This document shows, piece after piece, positions 20,920-29,618 of a DNA stretch of 64,000 nucleotides; the first letter of the stretch is position 1; each line of letters starts with the position of its first letter. The stretch spans positions 124,001 to 188,000 of the forward strand of contig NZ_CANMJB010000001.1 of assembly GCF_947498175.1 (NCBI RefSeq), written 5' to 3'. The translations under genes were made by a program, and so were the position numbers. Below the pieces are notes generated by a model. The model saw only the letters and a list, made by a program, of their open reading frames with translations, was not told the DNA's origin and did no database searches. This DNA is from an uncultured Algimonas sp. (lineage in GTDB: Bacteria > Pseudomonadota > Alphaproteobacteria > Caulobacterales > Maricaulaceae).

Positions 20920-21342
20920 GCCGTCCCGGACAGACGGTTCGCGCTGATATGTGGTTCATGCCGTCCCGACACGATGAGAGGTCTTTGCGTACAGGATCGC
21001 AGCGCGACGTCATTGCGGCGCGTGGTCGACCTTGGGAATGGCCTCGAGCCGATCCTCCCGATCGGCGCGACTGGACATATGGATGTGTGCGTCCGGCCTG
21101 ACCGGAACGGATGTGTCGAGGCTTCCGGCAGGGACGACCGGAAGCGCGCCATCCATCTACAGGCTCGGAACGGCAGAGCCGCATGTCGCGCAAGAGCTTT
21201 TCGCATGACGTGTGCTGGGCAGACGGTTCCGCACAGGCCTGAGCCGACATGCCGATGTGTCATGGCGTCGATTTCCGCTGGCTGTGGCCGTTCTGTAACC
21301 GGGCCGGATCGACATCAGGCCGTCACGCGTGCCCGACCCATG
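20920..21342. other. Non-coding stretch upstream of the rplU promoter
   Basis: About 420 bp between the rplU promoter and the terminator of the giant repeat gene. No gene, tRNA or clear RNA fold was recognised; short open frames lack any family likeness. Confidence 0.5.
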
Positions 21343-21375
21343 AAAAAAGCCCCGCCGCCGGAAAGGCGACGGGGC
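21343..21375 (-). terminator. Terminator of the giant repeat-protein gene
   Basis: An 11-bp stem (21349-21359 with 21365-21375, one non-canonical pair) with a 5-nt loop; read on the minus strand it ends in six T. It starts 24 nt after the giant gene's stop codon. Confidence 0.88.
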
Positions 21376-21398
21376 CGGTCTCGTGGGCGGCGCGGGCT

Positions 21399-24300
21399 TT
21401 AGTTGGCCCGGCCGATGACATTGCCGCGCGCGTCGCGGATCTGGCCCTGGCCGTCGACACGGCCGACGATGACGCCGCGATTATCCGTCACGAACCCGTC
21501 GGACCGGACGATGAAACCGCCGGCGGTCGTCGCCGGCACGGTGCCCGGAGCGCTGACCGTGACCGGCCCGGCCGGGGCATCGACGACGACGGGAACGACA
21601 GGGGCGCCAGTCGAGAAGCTGCTGGTCGTCGTGACGGCGGTACCGCCCACCATGGAGCGCCAATCGACCTGCAACTCATCCACCGTGCGCAGCGTCAGCC
21701 CGCCCGTGGAGAGATTGCGCGAGACCTGGAAGGCTTCGACCGCGGCGTAGGTTTCCTGTGTCAGTCGGCCATCGATAGCCCCCTGGTAGAAGCCGAGTTC
21801 CTGCAGGCGGCGCTGGATGGCCGAGATGACGACCGAGTTGGCGTTGGCCTCGCACAGGACCTGGCGCCATTCGGATTGCTGCGCGCTGGTCTGCGCGCGT
21901 TTCTCCACCACGCCGAACTCGGCCGGAATGACGACCGTCTCGATGCGGGCGGGTACGGCGACGCGCTGGACCTCGATCGTGTCGTAGACGGCGGGAACGA
22001 CGCGGGTCTGCACCTGCGGCTGGCTGTCCACGACGCGGCGCGTGACCGTGCGGGTGACCGCCGGGATGGTGCGTTCCTCGACGCGGGCCGGCTGCGCCAG
22101 CACGCGGCGTTCGACCGTGCGGGTGACGGCCGGGACGACGCGCTGCTCGGACCGGGCGGGTTGCACGATGCGGCGGCGCGTTTCCTGGCGCGTGACCGCC
22201 GGGATGACGCGTTCTTCCACACGGCCCGGCTGAGCGACGACGCGGCGCGTGATCGTCTCGGCCACGGCCGGAATGGCGCGTTCGACCGCGCGGGCGGGCT
22301 GCGCCACGACGCGGCGCGTGACCGCCTTGGTGACGGCCGGGACCGCCACTTCGACGGTGCGGGCCGGCTGCGCGATGACGCGGCGGACTTCCTGTCGGGT
22401 GACGGCCGGAACCGCCCGTTCGATTACTTGCGCTTCCTGGCGCAGCACCTGGCGTTCGACCTGGCGGGTGACCGCCGGGATGACCCGTTCGGTGACTTGC
22501 GCCGGGGTGCGCACGACCTGTCGCTCGATCTGGCGCGTCACGGCCGGGATGGTCCGTTCCACGACACCCGCGGGCTGGGCGATGACGCGGCGCGTCACAT
22601 TGGCCGTCACGGCCGGTATGGCGCGTTCGACGGTGCGGGCCGGTTGCGCGATGACGCGGCGGACTTCCTGGCGGGTGACCGCCGGGATGGCCCGTTCCGT
22701 CACCTGCGCCGGGGTGCGGACGACGCGGCGCTCTTCCACGCGGGTCACGGCCGGAATGGCGCGTTCCACCACACGGGCGGGCTGCGCCACGACGCGGCGG
22801 GTGATCACGTCGGTCACGGCCGGGATGGTCCGTTCCACGACGGCGGCCGGGGTGCGCACGATGCGGCGTTCGACCTGCTGGGCGACGGCCGGGATGACGC
22901 GTTCGACGGTCGCGGCCGGTTGCACGATGCGGCGCAGCGTTTCCTGTCGCGTGACGGCCGGAAGGGTGCGTTCCACGACGGAGGCAGGCTGCGTCACGAC
23001 GCGGCGTTCGATCTGGCGCGTGACGGCCGGAATGGCGCGTTCGACGGTGCGGGCCGGTTGGACCACGACACGGCGCTCCTCGACGGTGGTGACGGGCGGG
23101 GTGACCCGTTCCACGACGGCGGCCGGGGTGCGCACGACGCGGCGCTCCACGACCTGCGTGATCGCCGGAACGGCGCGCTCGACGGTCGCGGCCGGCTGGA
23201 CCATGACGCGGCGCGTTTCCTGTCGCGTGACGGCCGGAAGGGTGCGTTCGGTCACAGTCGCCGGGGTGCGCACGACGCGGCGTTCGACCTGGCGCGTCAC
23301 GGCCGGAACCGCGACTTCGACCGTGCGGGCCGGAGCGGACACGCGAAGGATGGCCTCCTGGCGCGTGACGGCCGGAATGACCCGCTCGGTGACGGCGGCC
23401 GGGGTGCGCACGACGCGGCGGGTGATCTCTTCCGTGACGGCCGGGATGGTCCGTTCGGTGACGGCGGCCGGCTGGACGATCACGCGGCGTTCCTCGACCC
23501 GTGTCACGGCCGGGATGACCCGTTCGGTGACTTGCGCCGGGGTGCGCACGACCTGGCGTTCCACCTGGCGCGTCACGGCCGGGACGGCGCGTTCCACGAC
23601 GCGGGCCGGCTGCGCCAGCACGCGGCGCGTTTCCTGGCGGGTGACGGCCGGGATGACCCGTTCGACGGCCTGGGCCGGAGTGCGCAGGATCTGGCGTTCG
23701 ACCTGCTTGGTGATGGCCGGAACGGCGACTTCGACCGTGCGGGCCGGTTGTGCGACGACGCGGCGGGTCTCGACGCGGGTGACGGCCGGAATGACCCGTT
23801 CGACGGTCTGGGCCGGTGTCTGCACGACGCGGCGTTCGATCTGCTTCGTGATCGCCGGAATGACGCGCTCGACGGTCGCAGCCGGCTGGACCATGCGCAG
23901 CCGTTCCTCGACGCGGGTGACCGCCGGAACGGTCCGCTCGACCACGGCGGCCGGTTGGGCGACGACGCGGCGTTCGACCACTTCGGTGATCGCCGGGATG
24001 GCCCGTTCGGTCACAGCCGCCGGAGTGCGGATGACGCGGCGTTCTTCGACGCGGGTGACGGCCGGAACGGCGCGCTCCGTCACGGCGGCCGGCGTGCGGA
24101 CCACGCGGCGCTCGACCTGACGGGTCACGGCCGGGACGGCGCGTTCGACCGTGCGGGCCGGTTGCACCAGGACCTGGCGCTCTTCCAGGCGCGTCACGGC
24201 GGGAATGACGCGTTCGACGGCCTGGGCCGGAGTGCGCAGGACGCGGCGTTCGACCACTTTCGTCACGGCCGGGATGGCGCGCTCGGTGATGGCGGCGGGC

Positions 24301-27300
24301 GTCCGGACGATGCGGCGTTCCTCGGCGCGGGTGACGGCCGGGATCGCGGTTTCGACGACCTGGGCGGGCGTTCGCACGCGGCGGCATTCGATTTCCTTGG
24401 TGACCGCGGGGATGACCCGTTCGACCACGCGGGCGGGCTGGGCCACGACGCGGCGGCTCTCGACGCGGGTGACGGCCGGGATCGTGCGTTCCGTGACCTG
24501 CGCCGGGGTGCGCAGGACCTGGCGTTCGACCACTTTCGTCACGGCCGGGATGGCCACTTCGACGGTGCGGGCCGGTTGGGCGATGACGCGGCGTTCCTCG
24601 ACGCGGGTCACGGCCGGGATGACGCGTTCGACGACGGCGGCCGGACGGTCCACGACGCGGCGCGTGACCTGGCGGGTGACGGCCGGAACGGCGCGTTCCA
24701 CGACACCGGCGCGTTCGGCGACGACCTGGCGTTCCACCACTTCGGTGATGGCCGGGATGGCCCGTTCGACGACGGACGCCGGCTGCGCCACGATGCGGCG
24801 CTCCACAACCTGCGTGATCGCCGGAACGGCGCGTTCCACGGTCGCGGCGGGCTGGACGATGCGGCGGCGTTCCTCGGTCCGGGTGACGGCCGGGACGGCC
24901 CGCTCCACGACCTGGGCGGGCGTGCGGATGACGCGGCGCGTCTCTTCGCGGGTGACGGCCGGGATGACGCGCTCGACCGTGCGGGCGGGCTGGGCGACGA
25001 CGCGGCGTTCCTCGACGCGGGTCACGGCCGGAACGGCGCGTTCCACGACGGCGGCGGGACGATCCACGACGCGGCGGGTCACGGCGCGGGTGACGGCCGG
25101 GATGGCCCGTTCCACAGTGCGGGCGGGCTGGACGATAACGCGGCGGGTTTCGGTCCGGGTGACGGCCGGGACGGCCCGCTCCACGGCGGTCGCCGGACGG
25201 TCGATGACGCGGCGGGTCACGGCGCGGGTCACGGCCGGAATGTCGCGTTCGACCATGCGGGCGGGCTGCACCACGACCTGGGTCGAGACCTGTCTGGTCA
25301 CGGCGGGCACGCGGCGTTCGACGATTCGGGCTTCCTCGATCAGGCGCTCGACCTGGACGACGTCGACCTGCTGGGTGAAGTCGGCGTTGCCGGCCGTTGC
25401 GGGATCGATCTCGACCACGCGGGCCGGAGCGACCAGGCGGTTGACCTCGACCGTTTCGTAGATCGGCGGCACGGCGACTTCGCGCGTCGTCGCCGGACGG
25501 TCTACGACACGGCGCGTGACCTGGCGCGTGACGGCCGGAACGACCCGTTCGACGGCACGGGCGGGCTGGGCGACGACGGTCTTGGTGATCGTTTCGTAGC
25601 GGGCGGGAACCAGCACGCGGCAGAGGATCTCGCCGGTCTGGGTGACGATGGTCTGGGTCGATTCCACGACCTGTTCAGACACGCCGTTGAAGACGGTGAA
25701 CTGTCCGCGCGTATTGGTGTTGATGCGGCCAGAACCGCCGAGTTGCGCGGCATTGAGCGCCTGCGACCCGGGTTTCCATTCCTCGCGGGCGGGTTCGATG
25801 ATGACCTGTTCGGTGCGGGTCTCGTAGACCGGCGGGATGACTTCGATATCGACGCGTTCCGGCGAGACGACGATCGTCTCCGATACGTCGCGGTAGGTGG
25901 CGGGCACGACTTCGACGCGGGTCGTGGCTTCCTGCAGCAGCACCTGTTCCGACACGGTCTCGAACTGGGCCGGAATGACGCGCAGCAGCGAGGCGGCATC
26001 GCGCGCGACATAGGTCTCGGCGACCGTTTCGTATTCGGCGGCGACGGCGACGTATTCGACCGTTTCCGGCTGGACGATGACGGTTTCCGTCACGGTTTCG
26101 AACTCGGCCGGGACGACGACCAGTTCGGTCGAGGCGTCCTGGACGACGACCGTCTCGGTGACGTCGCGGAAGGTGGCGGGCTGGGCGATCAGCTCGACGC
26201 TGGCGTCCTGGACGACGACCGTCTCGGTCACGTCCTCGAACACGGCCGGGATGGTTTCGAATTCGACGGAAGCGGGCTGCACGACGACGGTCTCGGTGAT
26301 ATCGCGGAACGTGGCAGGCGTGGCGATCAGTTCCGTCGTGGCCGGGGTGACGACGACCGTCTCGGCGATCGTTTCGAACTCGGCCGGAACGGCGACGAGC
26401 TCGGTGGTGGCGTCCTGCACCACGACCGTTTCGGTCACCGTGTCGAATTCGGCCGGGACGACGACCAGTTCGGTCGAAGCGGGCTGGACGACGACGGTTT
26501 CGGCGACCGTCTCGAACACGGCCGGGACGGTCTCGAACTCGACCGATGCGGGCTGGACGACGACGGTCTCGGCGACCGTCTCGTAGACGGCCGGCACGCT
26601 GACGAGCTCGACGCTGGCCTCTTGCACCACGACCGTCTCGGCCACGGTTTCGTAGCGGGCGGGCGTGACGACCAGTTCGGTCGTGGCGTCCTGGACGACG
26701 ACCGTCTCGGTGACGTCGCGGAAGGTGGCGGGTTGCGTCACCAGTTCCGTCGACGCTTCCTGCGCGACGACGGTTTCGGCGACGGTCTCGAACACGGCCG
26801 GAACGGTCTCGAACGCGACGGAAGCGGGTTGGACGACCATGGTCTCGGTCACGGTCTCGAAGACCGGCGGGATCGTCACGAGCTCCGTGGACGCTTCCTG
26901 AGCGACGACGGTGAAGTCCTCGTCGGCATAGACGGCCGGGACGGTTTCGTACTGGACCGTTTCGGGCTGGACCAGCACGACTTCCGTATAGGTTTCGAAG
27001 ACCGGCGGCACGACGTTCAGCTCGGTCGCGGCCGTCTGAACGACGACGGTTTCCTGCACCGTGTCGAACACGGCCGGAACGGTGACATATTCGACACTGG
27101 CGGGCTGGACGACAACGGTTTCGGTGACGGTTTCGAATTCGGCCGGAACGGTGACCAGCTCCGTCGCCGCTTCCTGGGCGACCACTTCGAACTGCTCGGT
27201 CTCGTAGATGGCCGGGGTGGCGACGAATTCGACCGATGCGGGCTGGACGACCAGCGTTTCGGTCACGGTGTCGAAGACGGGGGGAACGGTCAGGAGCTCG

Positions 27301-29618
27301 GTCGAGGCATCCTGCACCACGACCGCCTCTGACACGGTTTCGAACACGGCCGGGACCGTGACATAGTCGACGCTGGCGGGTTGGACGACGACGGTTTCGG
27401 CCACGGTTTCGAACACGGCCGGGGTGGCGATCAGTTCGGTCGAGGCCGCCTGGACGACGACTGTTTCCTGATAGGTCTCGAACTGAGCGGGAACGGCCTC
27501 ATACTCCACGCCCGCAGGCTGGATCACCACGGTTTCGGCCACGGTCTCGAAGACGGGCGGCACGCTGACCAGCTCGGTGGACGCTTCCCGGACGACGACG
27601 GTTTCGGCGACGTCCTCGAAAACGGCCGGGATGGTCTGGTATTCGACCGTGGCCGGCTGCACGACGACCGTTTCCGCGACGGTCTCGAACACGGCCGGAG
27701 TCGTCACCAACTCGGCGGACGCTTCCTGCACGACGACGGTGAACGCCTCTTCTTCATAGACGGCCGGCAGAGTGTCGAATTCGACGGAGGCCGGTTGCAC
27801 GACGACCGTTTCCGCGACGGTCTCGAAGACCGGCGGCACGGCGACCAGCTCGGTGGAGGCGTCCTGAACCACGACCGTTTCCGTCACCGTGTCGAACACG
27901 GCCGGAACGGTGACGTAGTCGACGCTGGCGGGCTGGACGACGACCGTTTCCGTCACCGTGTCGAACACGGCCGGGATGCTGACCAGTTCCGTCGACGCTT
28001 CCTGCACGACGACGGTCTGCGTGACCTCTTCGAACTGGGCGGGGATGGTGTCATAGCGGACACCGGCCGGTTGGACGACGACCGTTTCGGCGACCGTTTC
28101 GTAGACCGGCGGCACGGCGACCAGCTCGGTCGACGCGTCCTGCGCGACGACCGTATAGACTTCGTCCTCGTAGACGGCCGGGGTCGCGATATATTCGACG
28201 CTGGCCGGCTGGACGACGACCGTCTCGGCGACGGTCTCGAAGACGGGCGGAGTCGCGACCAGTTCGGTCACGGCTTCCTGGATGACGACGGTCTCTGCGA
28301 CCGTCTCGAATATGGCCGGAACGGTTTCGAACTCGACGCTGGCTTCCTGCACCACGACCGTTTCGGCGACGGTCTCGAAGACCGCCGGGACGGTGACGAG
28401 CTCGGTCGAGGCGTCCTGGACGACGACCGTCTGGGTGTAGTCCTCGAACACGGCCGGAACGGTTTCGTACTCGACGCTGGCCGGTTGGACGACGACGGTC
28501 TCGCTGACCGTCTCGAAGACGGGCGGGGTGGCGACAAGTTCGGTCGCGGCGGCTTGCACCACGATGGTCTCGGACACGTCCTCGAACACGGCCGGAACGA
28601 CCGTCAGTTCGACATCGGCGTCGCGGACCACGACCGTCTCGGCGACGGTTTCGAAGACGGGCGGCACGACGACCAGCTCGGTCGAGGCCTCTTGCACGAC
28701 GACCGTCTCGGCGACCTCCTCGAATTCGGCCGGGATGCTGACATATTCGACGCTGGCGGGCTGGACGACGACCGTTTCGGTCACGTCCTCGAACGCGGCG
28801 GGCGTCGCGACCAGTTCGGTCACGGCGGGCGTGACGACCATGGTCTCGGCGACGGTCTCGAACGTGGCCGGCACGGTGACCAGCTCGGTCGAGGCCTCTT
28901 GCACGACGACCGTTTCGGCGACCGTTTCGAAGACGGGCGGGGTGACGACCAGCTCGGTCGAGGCGTCCTGGACGACGACCGTCTCGGCGACGTCTTCGAA
29001 CACGGCCGGGACGGTCTGGTAGTCGACGCTGGCGGGTTGGACGACGACCGTCTCGGTCACGTCCTCATAGACGGCCGGGGTGATCAGCAATTCGCTGGCC
29101 GCGGCCTGGGTGACGACGGTTTCCGTGACGGTCTCGAAGACCGGGGGGACGGCGATCAGTTCGGTGGAGGCGGCCTGGACAACGACATTCTCGACATAGT
29201 CTTCGAACACGGCGGGGGACGTGACGAAGGCGACGGATTCCGGGCGGACCAGGACGGTTTCGGCGACGGTCTCGTAGACGGGGGGGATCGTCACGAGCTC
29301 GGTCGAGGCTTCCTGGACGATGACGGTCTCGGTGACGTCGCGGAAGGTGGGGGTGCCCGACCCGACGACAACAAGCTCCGTGCTTTCTTCTTGGACCAGG
29401 ACGCGTTCGGTCACGGTCTCGATCTGCGCCGGGATCTTGCGGATCTCCTCGACGGCTTCGCGCAGGACGACCTGTTCGGTCGATATCTCGTACTGCGCCG
29501 GGACGATGACCCGGGCGAAACATTCGCCGGGCAACGGATTGCCGGGCGGCAATTCCTGCGCCACGGTCGGTGCGGCCAAGACAGCCACGCTGGCTGCCGT
29601 CAAAAGAGTGCGTTTCAT
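21399..29618 (-). CDS. Giant secreted protein of 108 23-residue repeats with C-terminal peptidoglycan-binding domain
   Basis: About 2739 residues. Start at 29618 (MKRTLLTAASVAV) because a signal peptide follows at once, cleaved near TVAQ (residue 21). Layout: cap 1 with Cys33 (GECFARVIVPAQYE); 54 acidic units, residues 40-1284, ending in an EEW motif; a 53-residue linker with Cys1333 (EILCRVLVPARYE); 54 basic units, residues 1338-2584, ending SEW; Cys2589 (RQVLCEANANS); a peptidoglycan-binding-1 domain at about 2597-2650 (IQRRLQELGFYQGAIDGRLT); and a tail with two Gly/Asp turns (DNRGVIVGRVDG; DARGNVIGRAN). Each unit starts with PA or PP and is predicted to hold two beta strands. Acidic units carry about -2 to -3 net charge, basic units about +2 to +3. 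Expected location is the periplasm or cell surface, bound to the wall. Function unknown. Shorter relatives with the same caps and domain exist to my memory as unnamed 'peptidoglycan-binding proteins'. Confidence 0.9.
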   Translation of the reverse strand: MKRTLLTAASVAVLAAPTVAQELPPGNPLPGECFARVIVPAQYEISTEQVVLREAVEEIRKIPAQIETVTERVLVQEESTELVVVGSGTPTFRDVTETVIVQEASTELVTIPPVYETVAETVLVRPESVAFVTSPAVFEDYVENVVVQAASTELIAVPPVFETVTETVVTQAAASELLITPAVYEDVTETVVVQPASVDYQTVPAVFEDVAETVVVQDASTELVVTPPVFETVAETVVVQEASTELVTVPATFETVAETMVVTPAVTELVATPAAFEDVTETVVVQPASVEYVSIPAEFEEVAETVVVQEASTELVVVPPVFETVAETVVVRDADVELTVVPAVFEDVSETIVVQAAATELVATPPVFETVSETVVVQPASVEYETVPAVFEDYTQTVVVQDASTELVTVPAVFETVAETVVVQEASVEFETVPAIFETVAETVVIQEAVTELVATPPVFETVAETVVVQPASVEYIATPAVYEDEVYTVVAQDASTELVAVPPVYETVAETVVVQPAGVRYDTIPAQFEEVTQTVVVQEASTELVSIPAVFDTVTETVVVQPASVDYVTVPAVFDTVTETVVVQDASTELVAVPPVFETVAETVVVQPASVEFDTLPAVYEEEAFTVVVQEASAELVTTPAVFETVAETVVVQPATVEYQTIPAVFEDVAETVVVREASTELVSVPPVFETVAETVVIQPAGVEYEAVPAQFETYQETVVVQAASTELIATPAVFETVAETVVVQPASVDYVTVPAVFETVSEAVVVQDASTELLTVPPVFDTVTETLVVQPASVEFVATPAIYETEQFEVVAQEAATELVTVPAEFETVTETVVVQPASVEYVTVPAVFDTVQETVVVQTAATELNVVPPVFETYTEVVLVQPETVQYETVPAVYADEDFTVVAQEASTELVTIPPVFETVTETMVVQPASVAFETVPAVFETVAETVVAQEASTELVTQPATFRDVTETVVVQDATTELVVTPARYETVAETVVVQEASVELVSVPAVYETVAETVVVQPASVEFETVPAVFETVAETVVVQPASTELVVVPAEFDTVTETVVVQDATTELVAVPAEFETIAETVVVTPATTELIATPATFRDITETVVVQPASVEFETIPAVFEDVTETVVVQDASVELIAQPATFRDVTETVVVQDASTELVVVPAEFETVTETVIVQPETVEYVAVAAEYETVAETYVARDAASLLRVIPAQFETVSEQVLLQEATTRVEVVPATYRDVSETIVVSPERVDIEVIPPVYETRTEQVIIEPAREEWKPGSQALNAAQLGGSGRINTNTRGQFTVFNGVSEQVVESTQTIVTQTGEILCRVLVPARYETITKTVVAQPARAVERVVPAVTRQVTRRVVDRPATTREVAVPPIYETVEVNRLVAPARVVEIDPATAGNADFTQQVDVVQVERLIEEARIVERRVPAVTRQVSTQVVVQPARMVERDIPAVTRAVTRRVIDRPATAVERAVPAVTRTETRRVIVQPARTVERAIPAVTRAVTRRVVDRPAAVVERAVPAVTRVEERRVVAQPARTVERVIPAVTREETRRVIRTPAQVVERAVPAVTRTEERRRIVQPAATVERAVPAITQVVERRIVAQPASVVERAIPAITEVVERQVVAERAGVVERAVPAVTRQVTRRVVDRPAAVVERVIPAVTRVEERRVIAQPARTVEVAIPAVTKVVERQVLRTPAQVTERTIPAVTRVESRRVVAQPARVVERVIPAVTKEIECRRVRTPAQVVETAIPAVTRAEERRIVRTPAAITERAIPAVTKVVERRVLRTPAQAVERVIPAVTRLEERQVLVQPARTVERAVPAVTRQVERRVVRTPAAVTERAVPAVTRVEERRVIRTPAAVTERAIPAITEVVERRVVAQPAAVVERTVPAVTRVEERLRMVQPAATVERVIPAITKQIERRVVQTPAQTVERVIPAVTRVETRRVVAQPARTVEVAVPAITKQVERQILRTPAQAVERVIPAVTRQETRRVLAQPARVVERAVPAVTRQVERQVVRTPAQVTERVIPAVTRVEERRVIVQPAAVTERTIPAVTEEITRRVVRTPAAVTERVIPAVTRQEAILRVSAPARTVEVAVPAVTRQVERRVVRTPATVTERTLPAVTRQETRRVMVQPAATVERAVPAITQVVERRVVRTPAAVVERVTPPVTTVEERRVVVQPARTVERAIPAVTRQIERRVVTQPASVVERTLPAVTRQETLRRIVQPAATVERVIPAVAQQVERRIVRTPAAVVERTIPAVTDVITRRVVAQPARVVERAIPAVTRVEERRVVRTPAQVTERAIPAVTRQEVRRVIAQPARTVERAIPAVTANVTRRVIAQPAGVVERTIPAVTRQIERQVVRTPAQVTERVIPAVTRQVERQVLRQEAQVIERAVPAVTRQEVRRVIAQPARTVEVAVPAVTKAVTRRVVAQPARAVERAIPAVAETITRRVVAQPGRVEERVIPAVTRQETRRRIVQPARSEQRVVPAVTRTVERRVLAQPARVEERTIPAVTRTVTRRVVDSQPQVQTRVVPAVYDTIEVQRVAVPARIETVVIPAEFGVVEKRAQTSAQQSEWRQVLCEANANSVVISAIQRRLQELGFYQGAIDGRLTQETYAAVEAFQVSRNLSTGGLTLRTVDELQVDWRSMVGGTAVTTTSSFSTGAPVVPVVVDAPAGPVTVSAPGTVPATTAGGFIVRSDGFVTDNRGVIVGRVDGQGQIRDARGNVIGRAN
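21867..25607 (-). repeat. Tandem array of 54 basic 69-bp units
   Basis: Coding repeats of period 69 bp (23 residues), counted one by one from the translation: 54 units including the short last unit and two irregular ones (unit 3 of 22 and unit 4 of 32 residues). The count closes exactly on the Trp codon at 21867-21869. Consensus features are PAVTR at positions 1-5, E/R-rich 7-10, VV at 11-12, AQPAR or RTPA near 13-17, and VERAI at 19-23. Unit 18 carries the only Cys of the array (residue 1745). Confidence 0.95.
25767..29501 (-). repeat. Tandem array of 54 acidic 69-bp units
   Basis: Coding repeats of period 69 bp counted from the translation: 54 units, unit 2 longer by three residues. Consensus features are PAVFE or PPVFE at positions 1-5, TVAETVVVQ at 6-14, and P/E/D-AS at 15-17. 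Positions 18-20 are TEL or VEY/VEF, alternating over much of the array to give a 46-residue (138-bp) super-repeat. The array is homologous to the basic one: PA at 1-2, VV at 11-12, Q-P-A at 14-16. Confidence 0.95.

Follow-up and report, generated by a model that had tools for sequence, protein, structure and literature searches.

The 64,000-nucleotide stretch of DNA from an uncultured Algimonas sp. that was analysed as a whole (contig NZ_CANMJB010000001.1, positions 124,001 to 188,000; referred to as the window) contains a giant gene that is one unbroken frame on the minus strand at 21399-29618, with coding bases at 21402-29618 and the stop codon at 21399-21401. The encoded protein comprises 2739 aa, starting with MKRTLL. 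Its self-identity is 0.49 at a lag of 23 residues and 0.53 at a lag of 46, compared with 0.12 at lags of 22 and 24, and therefore the repeat is not a product of chance. The protein is arranged in the order signal peptide, GECFARVI, acidic units, a 49-residue linker ending in GEIL, CRVL, basic units, EWRQVLCE, a PG_binding_1 domain and a tail. Both arms are opened by a GE..C.RV motif and closed by EW, and three cysteines (C1, C2 and C3) are conserved. The features in the window are as follows.

29559..29618, minus strand: signal peptide (residues 1-20, MKRTLL...VA), plain and with no lipobox, from a translation read by eye without a predictor
29520..29522, minus strand: conserved cysteine C1, directly ahead of acidic unit 1 (GECFARVI), in a Cys motif common to giants and short relatives
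25770..29504, minus strand: acidic arm A, 54 units of 23 residues, ending in ...EEWKP, from sequence and unit count
25977..26045, minus strand: odd acidic unit A51 (n-3), opposite the odd basic unit B4, from unit parse and register
25623..25769, minus strand: conserved tip linker (GSQALN...QFTVFNG...TGEIL), from sequence comparison
25620..25622, minus strand: conserved cysteine C2, directly ahead of basic unit 1 (GEILCRVL), from sequence comparison
21861..25610, minus strand: basic arm B, 54 units of 23 residues including the degenerate B4 and the last unit B54 (...SEWRQ), from sequence and unit count
25380..25403, minus strand: short insert following B3, from sequence comparison
25311..25379, minus strand: degenerate basic unit B4, the ladder partner of A51, from unit parse and register
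21852..21854, minus strand: conserved cysteine C3, directly past B54 (EWRQVLCE), about opposite C1 by the ladder offset
21678..21827, minus strand: PG_binding_1 domain (Pfam PF01471)
21405..21509, minus strand: C-terminal tail, weakly DUF3659-like (16.8 bits, under the cut-off of 24.8)
21348..21376, minus strand: intrinsic-terminator-like 12-pair hairpin directly 3′ of the stop codon, from a pattern match

With degenerate units included, the protein has 54 acidic and 54 basic units of 23 residues. The unit-scoring script alone returned 54 acidic units (net charge −199) and 52 basic units (net charge +96); the two further basic units are the degenerate fourth unit and the last unit, which runs into EWRQVLCE. 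The PG_binding_1 match at residues 2598-2647 (E 4.3e-8, 33.7 bits, above the cut-off of 23) places the protein among the PF01471 proteins. The unit count, this match and the intact frame bear out the initial sequence-only reading of the locus, which had described 54 acidic plus 54 basic units followed by a peptidoglycan-binding domain in a protein of about 2739 aa. The conserved linker, the insert following B3, the common ends of the arms, the cysteines and the terminator-like hairpin go beyond that reading. The terminator-like pattern occurs at 5 sites in the region against a shuffle mean of 0.5. A Pfam match to Caudo_bapla_N (36.5 bits for the whole protein, cut-off 26.7) was rejected as a sum over repeats and not homology, as no single stretch passes. 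The plus-strand frame at 21249-27332 (2027 aa) opposite the giant gene is without support as a gene and is likely a by-product of the repeat composition. By eye, a stretch resembling the C-terminal tail is inserted past A2 in many relatives. Many relatives also carry a tip insert of roughly 56-84 residues after B3, where the insert of the window protein is short, and this often contains a DxNxDGxDDRDG-like motif that resembles calcium-binding motifs.

A scan of one genome per species (84,980 species) returned 13 loci, 11 of them with giant forms, some truncated by contig ends; the genera with giant-form loci include Algimonas, Hellea and the named relative Litorimonas, which NCBI assigns to the family Robiginitomaculaceae. 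Of 137 genomes from the family searched with the C-terminal 200 residues, 71 gave a match at E<=0.001; 38 of these fell below E 1e-40, and they span 8 of 19 genera with open frames of up to 3052 aa. One scan of viral contigs found no relative. Among 11 loci that were compared, an M16 peptidase gene adjoins the giant gene in nine and obg in seven, and a gene called as a HAD-like hydrolase, checked with Pfam in two cases, precedes it in nine. The window giant has the M16 and obg neighbours without the HAD gene; its M16 peptidase is 73% identical in Algimonas arctica, the nearest named relative. The A. arctica giant (L013:7932-13670 and on; the same as L035) has a frame break in the basic arm, which is either real or a sequencing error. 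The first reading had named many characterised homologues of like length and charge layout, or a lack of expression together with frequent frameshifts in related strains, as observations that would speak against it: no characterised homologues were found, and a frame break was seen in this one relative.

The two arms of the giants are generally equal in length. Among 26 distinct complete giants including that of the window, all of which had open frames by selection, 18 have 54+54 units, five have 46+46 and three are unequal, so that 23 of 26 have equal arms. The unequal giants (L009, L017 and L058) have 52+48, 54+50 and 42+41 units; the first two come from MAGs and the third from a 73% complete assembly. 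Incomplete or broken copies (L012, L013, L018, L019 and L049) were excluded from the unit statistics, and a few counts were corrected by hand from the sequence (a spurious insert unit dropped in L040, L045 and L050, a missed unit added in L041). The acidic arm precedes the basic arm in 28 of 28 distinct giant copies measured, and L045 and L049 agree. In an M16 peptidase tree of 17 rows, the 54+54 rows are scattered and the 46+46 rows, of which the tree has three, group in a single supported clade.

We analysed the covariation of charge between the arms in the 18 54+54 species after removing species-by-parity and position means from unit net charge, using units 5-50; in the correlations, three or four units at either end of an arm were set aside. 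The charges of A(i) and B(j) are anticorrelated at i+j=55 (r = −0.397), whereas r stays within −0.107 to 0.099 in 28 other antiparallel registers. Compared with 24 other registers the signal has a z of −7.0, each half of the arms agrees, and 0 of 2000 species permutations matched it. The minimum falls at register 55 in 9 of 18 individual species. In the five 46+46 species it falls at i+j=47 (r −0.18). Thinning to six species under 70% identity left a weaker signal (r −0.31, z −3.1).

At the level of residues, the leading couplings at i+j=55 are A8-B12, A11-B7, A7-B9 and A6-B14, with position sums of 16-20, and this ladder is extended by the couplings A20-B22, A19-B23, A22-B20 and A23-B21 at i+j=54; some strong couplings sit off the ladder, such as A17-B13 at i+j=54. 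Summed by offset, the couplings peak along an antiparallel ladder at 15-22 with a maximum at 20. Mean-field direct coupling analysis of 846 unit triples (effective number 274), to which registers 55 and 54 were supplied, placed 19 of the top 20 A-B couplings at ladder sums of 16-22. As read from covariation, the pattern is that of an antiparallel two-stranded sheet. Species permutation was discarded as a control for whole-residue coupling: because of shared ancestry every register tried beats the permuted mean (z 8-13), and therefore registers were compared with each other instead. Stacking within an arm, as in a solenoid or coil, was not supported either, since couplings over distances of two to eight units are dispersed and reach at most z 17.7, compared with 60 on the ladder.

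Three residue exchanges account for a key code between the arms: Tyr/Phe at A8 goes with Arg/Lys at B12, Ala/Pro/Met at A11 with Met at B7, and Arg/Lys at A6 with Asp at B14. Across the 23 equal-arm species, keyed A units face a matching B unit in 110/110, 95/110 and 129/148 cases (A8, A11 and A6, respectively), where 13.5, 13.3 and 18.8 are expected; such units number 139, 107 and 140 in the B arms. The keys were picked from the 18 54+54 species, so that the five 46+46 species alone form the held-out set. With all units scored, 264/297 keys match at i+j=55 in the 54+54 set. When the register is shifted by one unit, the counts are 12/297 and 13/296, and no even shift of up to six units exceeds 80 (of 265). 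The held-out set gives 70/71 at i+j=47 and 0/71 in both adjacent registers, and its even shifts reach no more than 23 (of 62). The code is not without exceptions: 33/297 keyed A units in the 54+54 set are unmatched, and 29/139 B units with Arg/Lys at position 12 are without a Tyr/Phe partner. In gapped alignments of the unequal giants, the keys match on both sides of one local gap of 4, 4 and 1 units. The five partial copies, aligned from the tip, mostly match, with three unmatched acidic marks in L018. We read the keys as probable register marks against slippage.

VWA proteins of two relatives (L020:7413-10673 and L021:7518-10442, both plus strand) contain, by eye, pieces like B54-A1-A2 and like tip linker-B1-B2-A54, that is, ladder partners in permuted order. 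The L020 protein has Pfam matches to YfbK_C, vWF_A and VWA. When the L021 protein was used to search the window's genome, the giant itself was the sole match.

Short relatives, whose existence had been anticipated, do occur: two-arm proteins with 23-residue units were found across Alphaproteobacteria and in three sampled genomes of other classes. A machine parse that requires the C and W landmarks and allows no indels yielded 61 distinct proteins, namely 44 with 4+4 units, 11 with 3+3, five with 2+2 and one with 10+6, so that 60 of 61 have equal arms. Forms missed by the parse were counted by eye (L065 6+6; L078 2+2; L126 3+3; L071/L102/L103, L108 and L150 4+4). The sole unequal case, L117, has 10+6 strongly basic units, and its locus also holds a 4+4 frame. 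The genome of the window holds a 4+4 paralogue as well (426-aa frame, L066:5315-6592, plus strand), which is absent from that genome's PF01471 listing. Neither Pfam nor NCBIfam has a model that convincingly matches the repeats of giants or short forms. By eye, a 544-aa protein from another class (L109) shows the arm order A A B B, with three units in each of its four arms, an order that looks like one hairpin nested in another. Small proteins at L128, L129 and L130 have a single arm of about three units by eye, and these may perhaps pair as homodimers.

The ladder of the giants, in which X+Y is about 23(n−1)+19, recurs in the short forms. It predicts X+Y = 89 for 4+4 proteins, and in 35 non-redundant 4+4 proteins the two most negative of the residue-charge offsets tested are the antiparallel sums 88 and 89 (z −6.4 and −6.2; the next-strongest offset has z −4.6). 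All-residue coupling ranks 87, 89, 88 and 86 first. Whole-unit net charge shows no antiparallel pattern in these 35 short relatives (partner correlations of −0.11, −0.26, +0.36 and +0.06). The linker comprises 12-55 residues in 4+4 forms, 12-19 in 3+3, 13 in 2+2 and about 50 in giants; it does not lengthen with n and therefore fits a hairpin and not a parallel arrangement.

Structure prediction of both halves together, which had been proposed at the outset, gave mirrored strands but at low confidence. An AlphaFold2 model of A49-54, the linker and B1-9 (pLDDT 62.8, pTM 0.21) places strands at positions 4-15 and 18-24 of the unit. Where the partner is included, namely in B1-5 and the first strand of B6, the basic arm is modelled as strand, and B7-9 as coil with pLDDT near 34; A46-48, the partners of B7-B9, are missing from that piece. 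In a 12+12 piece (pLDDT 47.4, pTM 0.19), strand and coil stretches are mirrored along A43-54 and B12-1, with strands at A43, the first strand of A44 and A47-54 on one side and at B12, B11, the first strand of B8 and B7-1 on the other. With its partner present, B7 turns to strand in this model (pLDDT under 50), whereas A45-46 and B9-10 are coil despite the presence of their partners. The mirrored pattern in these low-confidence models weakly supports A-B pairing. A PDB fold search with the model returned nothing significant, with pore-forming toxins among weak matches to unrelated beta proteins, and a viral fold library gave one match (E 7.5e-5, TM-score 0.18). A PDB sequence search with the giant found one weak match (8eoz_B, E 0.063); the 19 PDB matches of a short-form profile all lie on the PG-binding part.

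Equal arms, a defined register, the residue ladder and the key code are established by sequence statistics, and they strongly support the earlier suggestion that the acidic and basic arms pair like a zipper, down to the key code in held-out species. We consider it highly likely that the giant is one keyed antiparallel beta-hairpin, A(i) pairing with B(55-i), anchored to the wall at its base. The acidic arm would run from base to tip, the short linker would turn and the basic arm would return, with A(i) opposite B(55-i). Each unit pair would set two strands of A, of 12 and 7 residues, against their counterparts in B, with the Pro-Ala kinks of the two arms facing each other. Near-identical units could let the arms slip by two or four units; key pairs would mark particular levels and fix the register as slip stops. 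From the signal peptide and the PG_binding_1 domain, export, presumably to the periplasm, and wall binding can be inferred. The base would hold the peptidoglycan-binding domain and probably a C1-C3 disulfide, a closing bond suggested because the ladder offset sets C1 about opposite C3 there. Zipping may proceed from the tip, and the shape would be extended, with 54 units reaching roughly 0.35-0.4 micrometre if straight, by strand-rise arithmetic. Our tentative proposal for the function is a mechanical one, namely that of a long fibre, strut or ruler anchored to the wall within the envelope, and we give it somewhat less than even chances.

The keyed hairpin may itself be part of a larger structure, a four-arm cable formed by two hairpins lying head to tail, or by one folded at mid-length, in exact full-length register. 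We regard this as somewhat unlikely. A dimeric cable would have one wall-binding domain at either end; in both forms the cable would add to the hairpin ladder and not replace it. A secondary charge signal between A(i) and B(i) (r −0.18, z −3.3, in both halves, 0/2000 permutations), at a residue offset of about −4, points in this direction, and in the 46+46 set it gives the lowest value (r −0.12) among 15 parallel registers. This signal is far weaker than the ladder, is not seen in the short relatives and finds no counterpart in the key code, which scores 10/297 and 0/71 at A(i)-B(i); parallel pairing as the main contact of the arms was discarded, the A(i)-B(i) signal being only a secondary one. 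Symmetric A-A and B-B couplings also favour the cable, although they may be indirect. In a four-species 46-unit group, the acidic arm is best fitted by the loss of two four-unit blocks, 17-20 and about 34-37 in the numbering of the 54-unit form, which nearly mirror each other across the centre. In the basic arm, however, the deletion sites are not clearly defined, and for Hellea a single central block fits about equally well. In its most specific form, the cable would be a measuring rod: two keyed 54-unit hairpins lying head to tail would give four strands whose length is fixed (about 0.35-0.4 micrometre if straight), both ends would bear a wall-binding domain, and a code of residue pairs along the arms would set the register in the manner of complementary bases; we judge this unlikely.

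It had been left open whether the arms pair within or between molecules. Pairing as such stood; an arrangement in which the same antiparallel contacts join two molecules by domain swap, linking chains into a polymer or lattice, is quite improbable. Coevolution is blind to the difference between intra- and intermolecular contacts and would serve both equally. A tip linker that is short and does not grow with n, and short relatives with the same residue ladder, are most simply explained by a hairpin. That the arms are separate, unpaired repeat domains (beta-solenoids or disordered polyampholytes) that bind other charged polymers and are equal in length for historical reasons is barely credible, as opposite charges, low complexity and low AlphaFold confidence would suit it but register-specific covariation, the key code, equal arms at n = 2, 3, 4, 46 and 54 and the scattered within-arm couplings speak against it.

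A literature search over 5.39 million papers, which took in few subscription papers and no bioRxiv preprints, brought up no account of the giant protein, of a giant hairpin or of the unit code. Within the literature covered, the surmise that this size and charge split might be undescribed is consistent with the lack of any account of the large form. A hairpin as such is an ordinary motif. As far as we can tell, a repeat protein in which two separate arms pair unit by unit through a residue key code is of a new kind, and if our reading is right, this would to our knowledge be by far the longest beta-hairpin known. It would then be a natural, genetically encoded zipper in which two strands of >1200 residues find a unique register via a few residue-pair keys, providing a readable pairing code for protein design and a clean case of coevolution inside one repeat protein that exposes its fold. 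It would also be a candidate for a structural element of set length in the envelope, in a family that includes prosthecate members such as Algimonas. The recurrence of 54 units in rows spread over the M16 tree makes the question of a molecular ruler testable.

The closest known systems are the short two-arm proteins. The window giant shares with them two arms of 23-residue units, each beginning with a Cys motif and ending with W, the equal unit number (54 + 54), the start Cys, the tip W, the linker and the second Cys, and giants and short forms have the residue-level ladder in common. Like the giant, the short proteins often end in PG_binding_1 (7/7 scanned). They differ in having 2-6 units per arm compared with 46-54 in the giants and in lacking a strong acidic/basic split, and some carry a lipobox by eye, which the window giant does not. 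Pore-forming toxins such as lysenin, the anthrax PA channel and aerolysin, whose weak fold matches span both arms of the model, have stems formed by a long two-stranded antiparallel ribbon and in this respect resemble the proposed hairpin. Giant repeat adhesins and fibre proteins (Ig-like, RTX and autotransporters) are likewise secreted, thousands of residues long and built from tandem repeats; their repeats fold one by one, whereas in the giant described here the two arms appear to be paired unit by unit.
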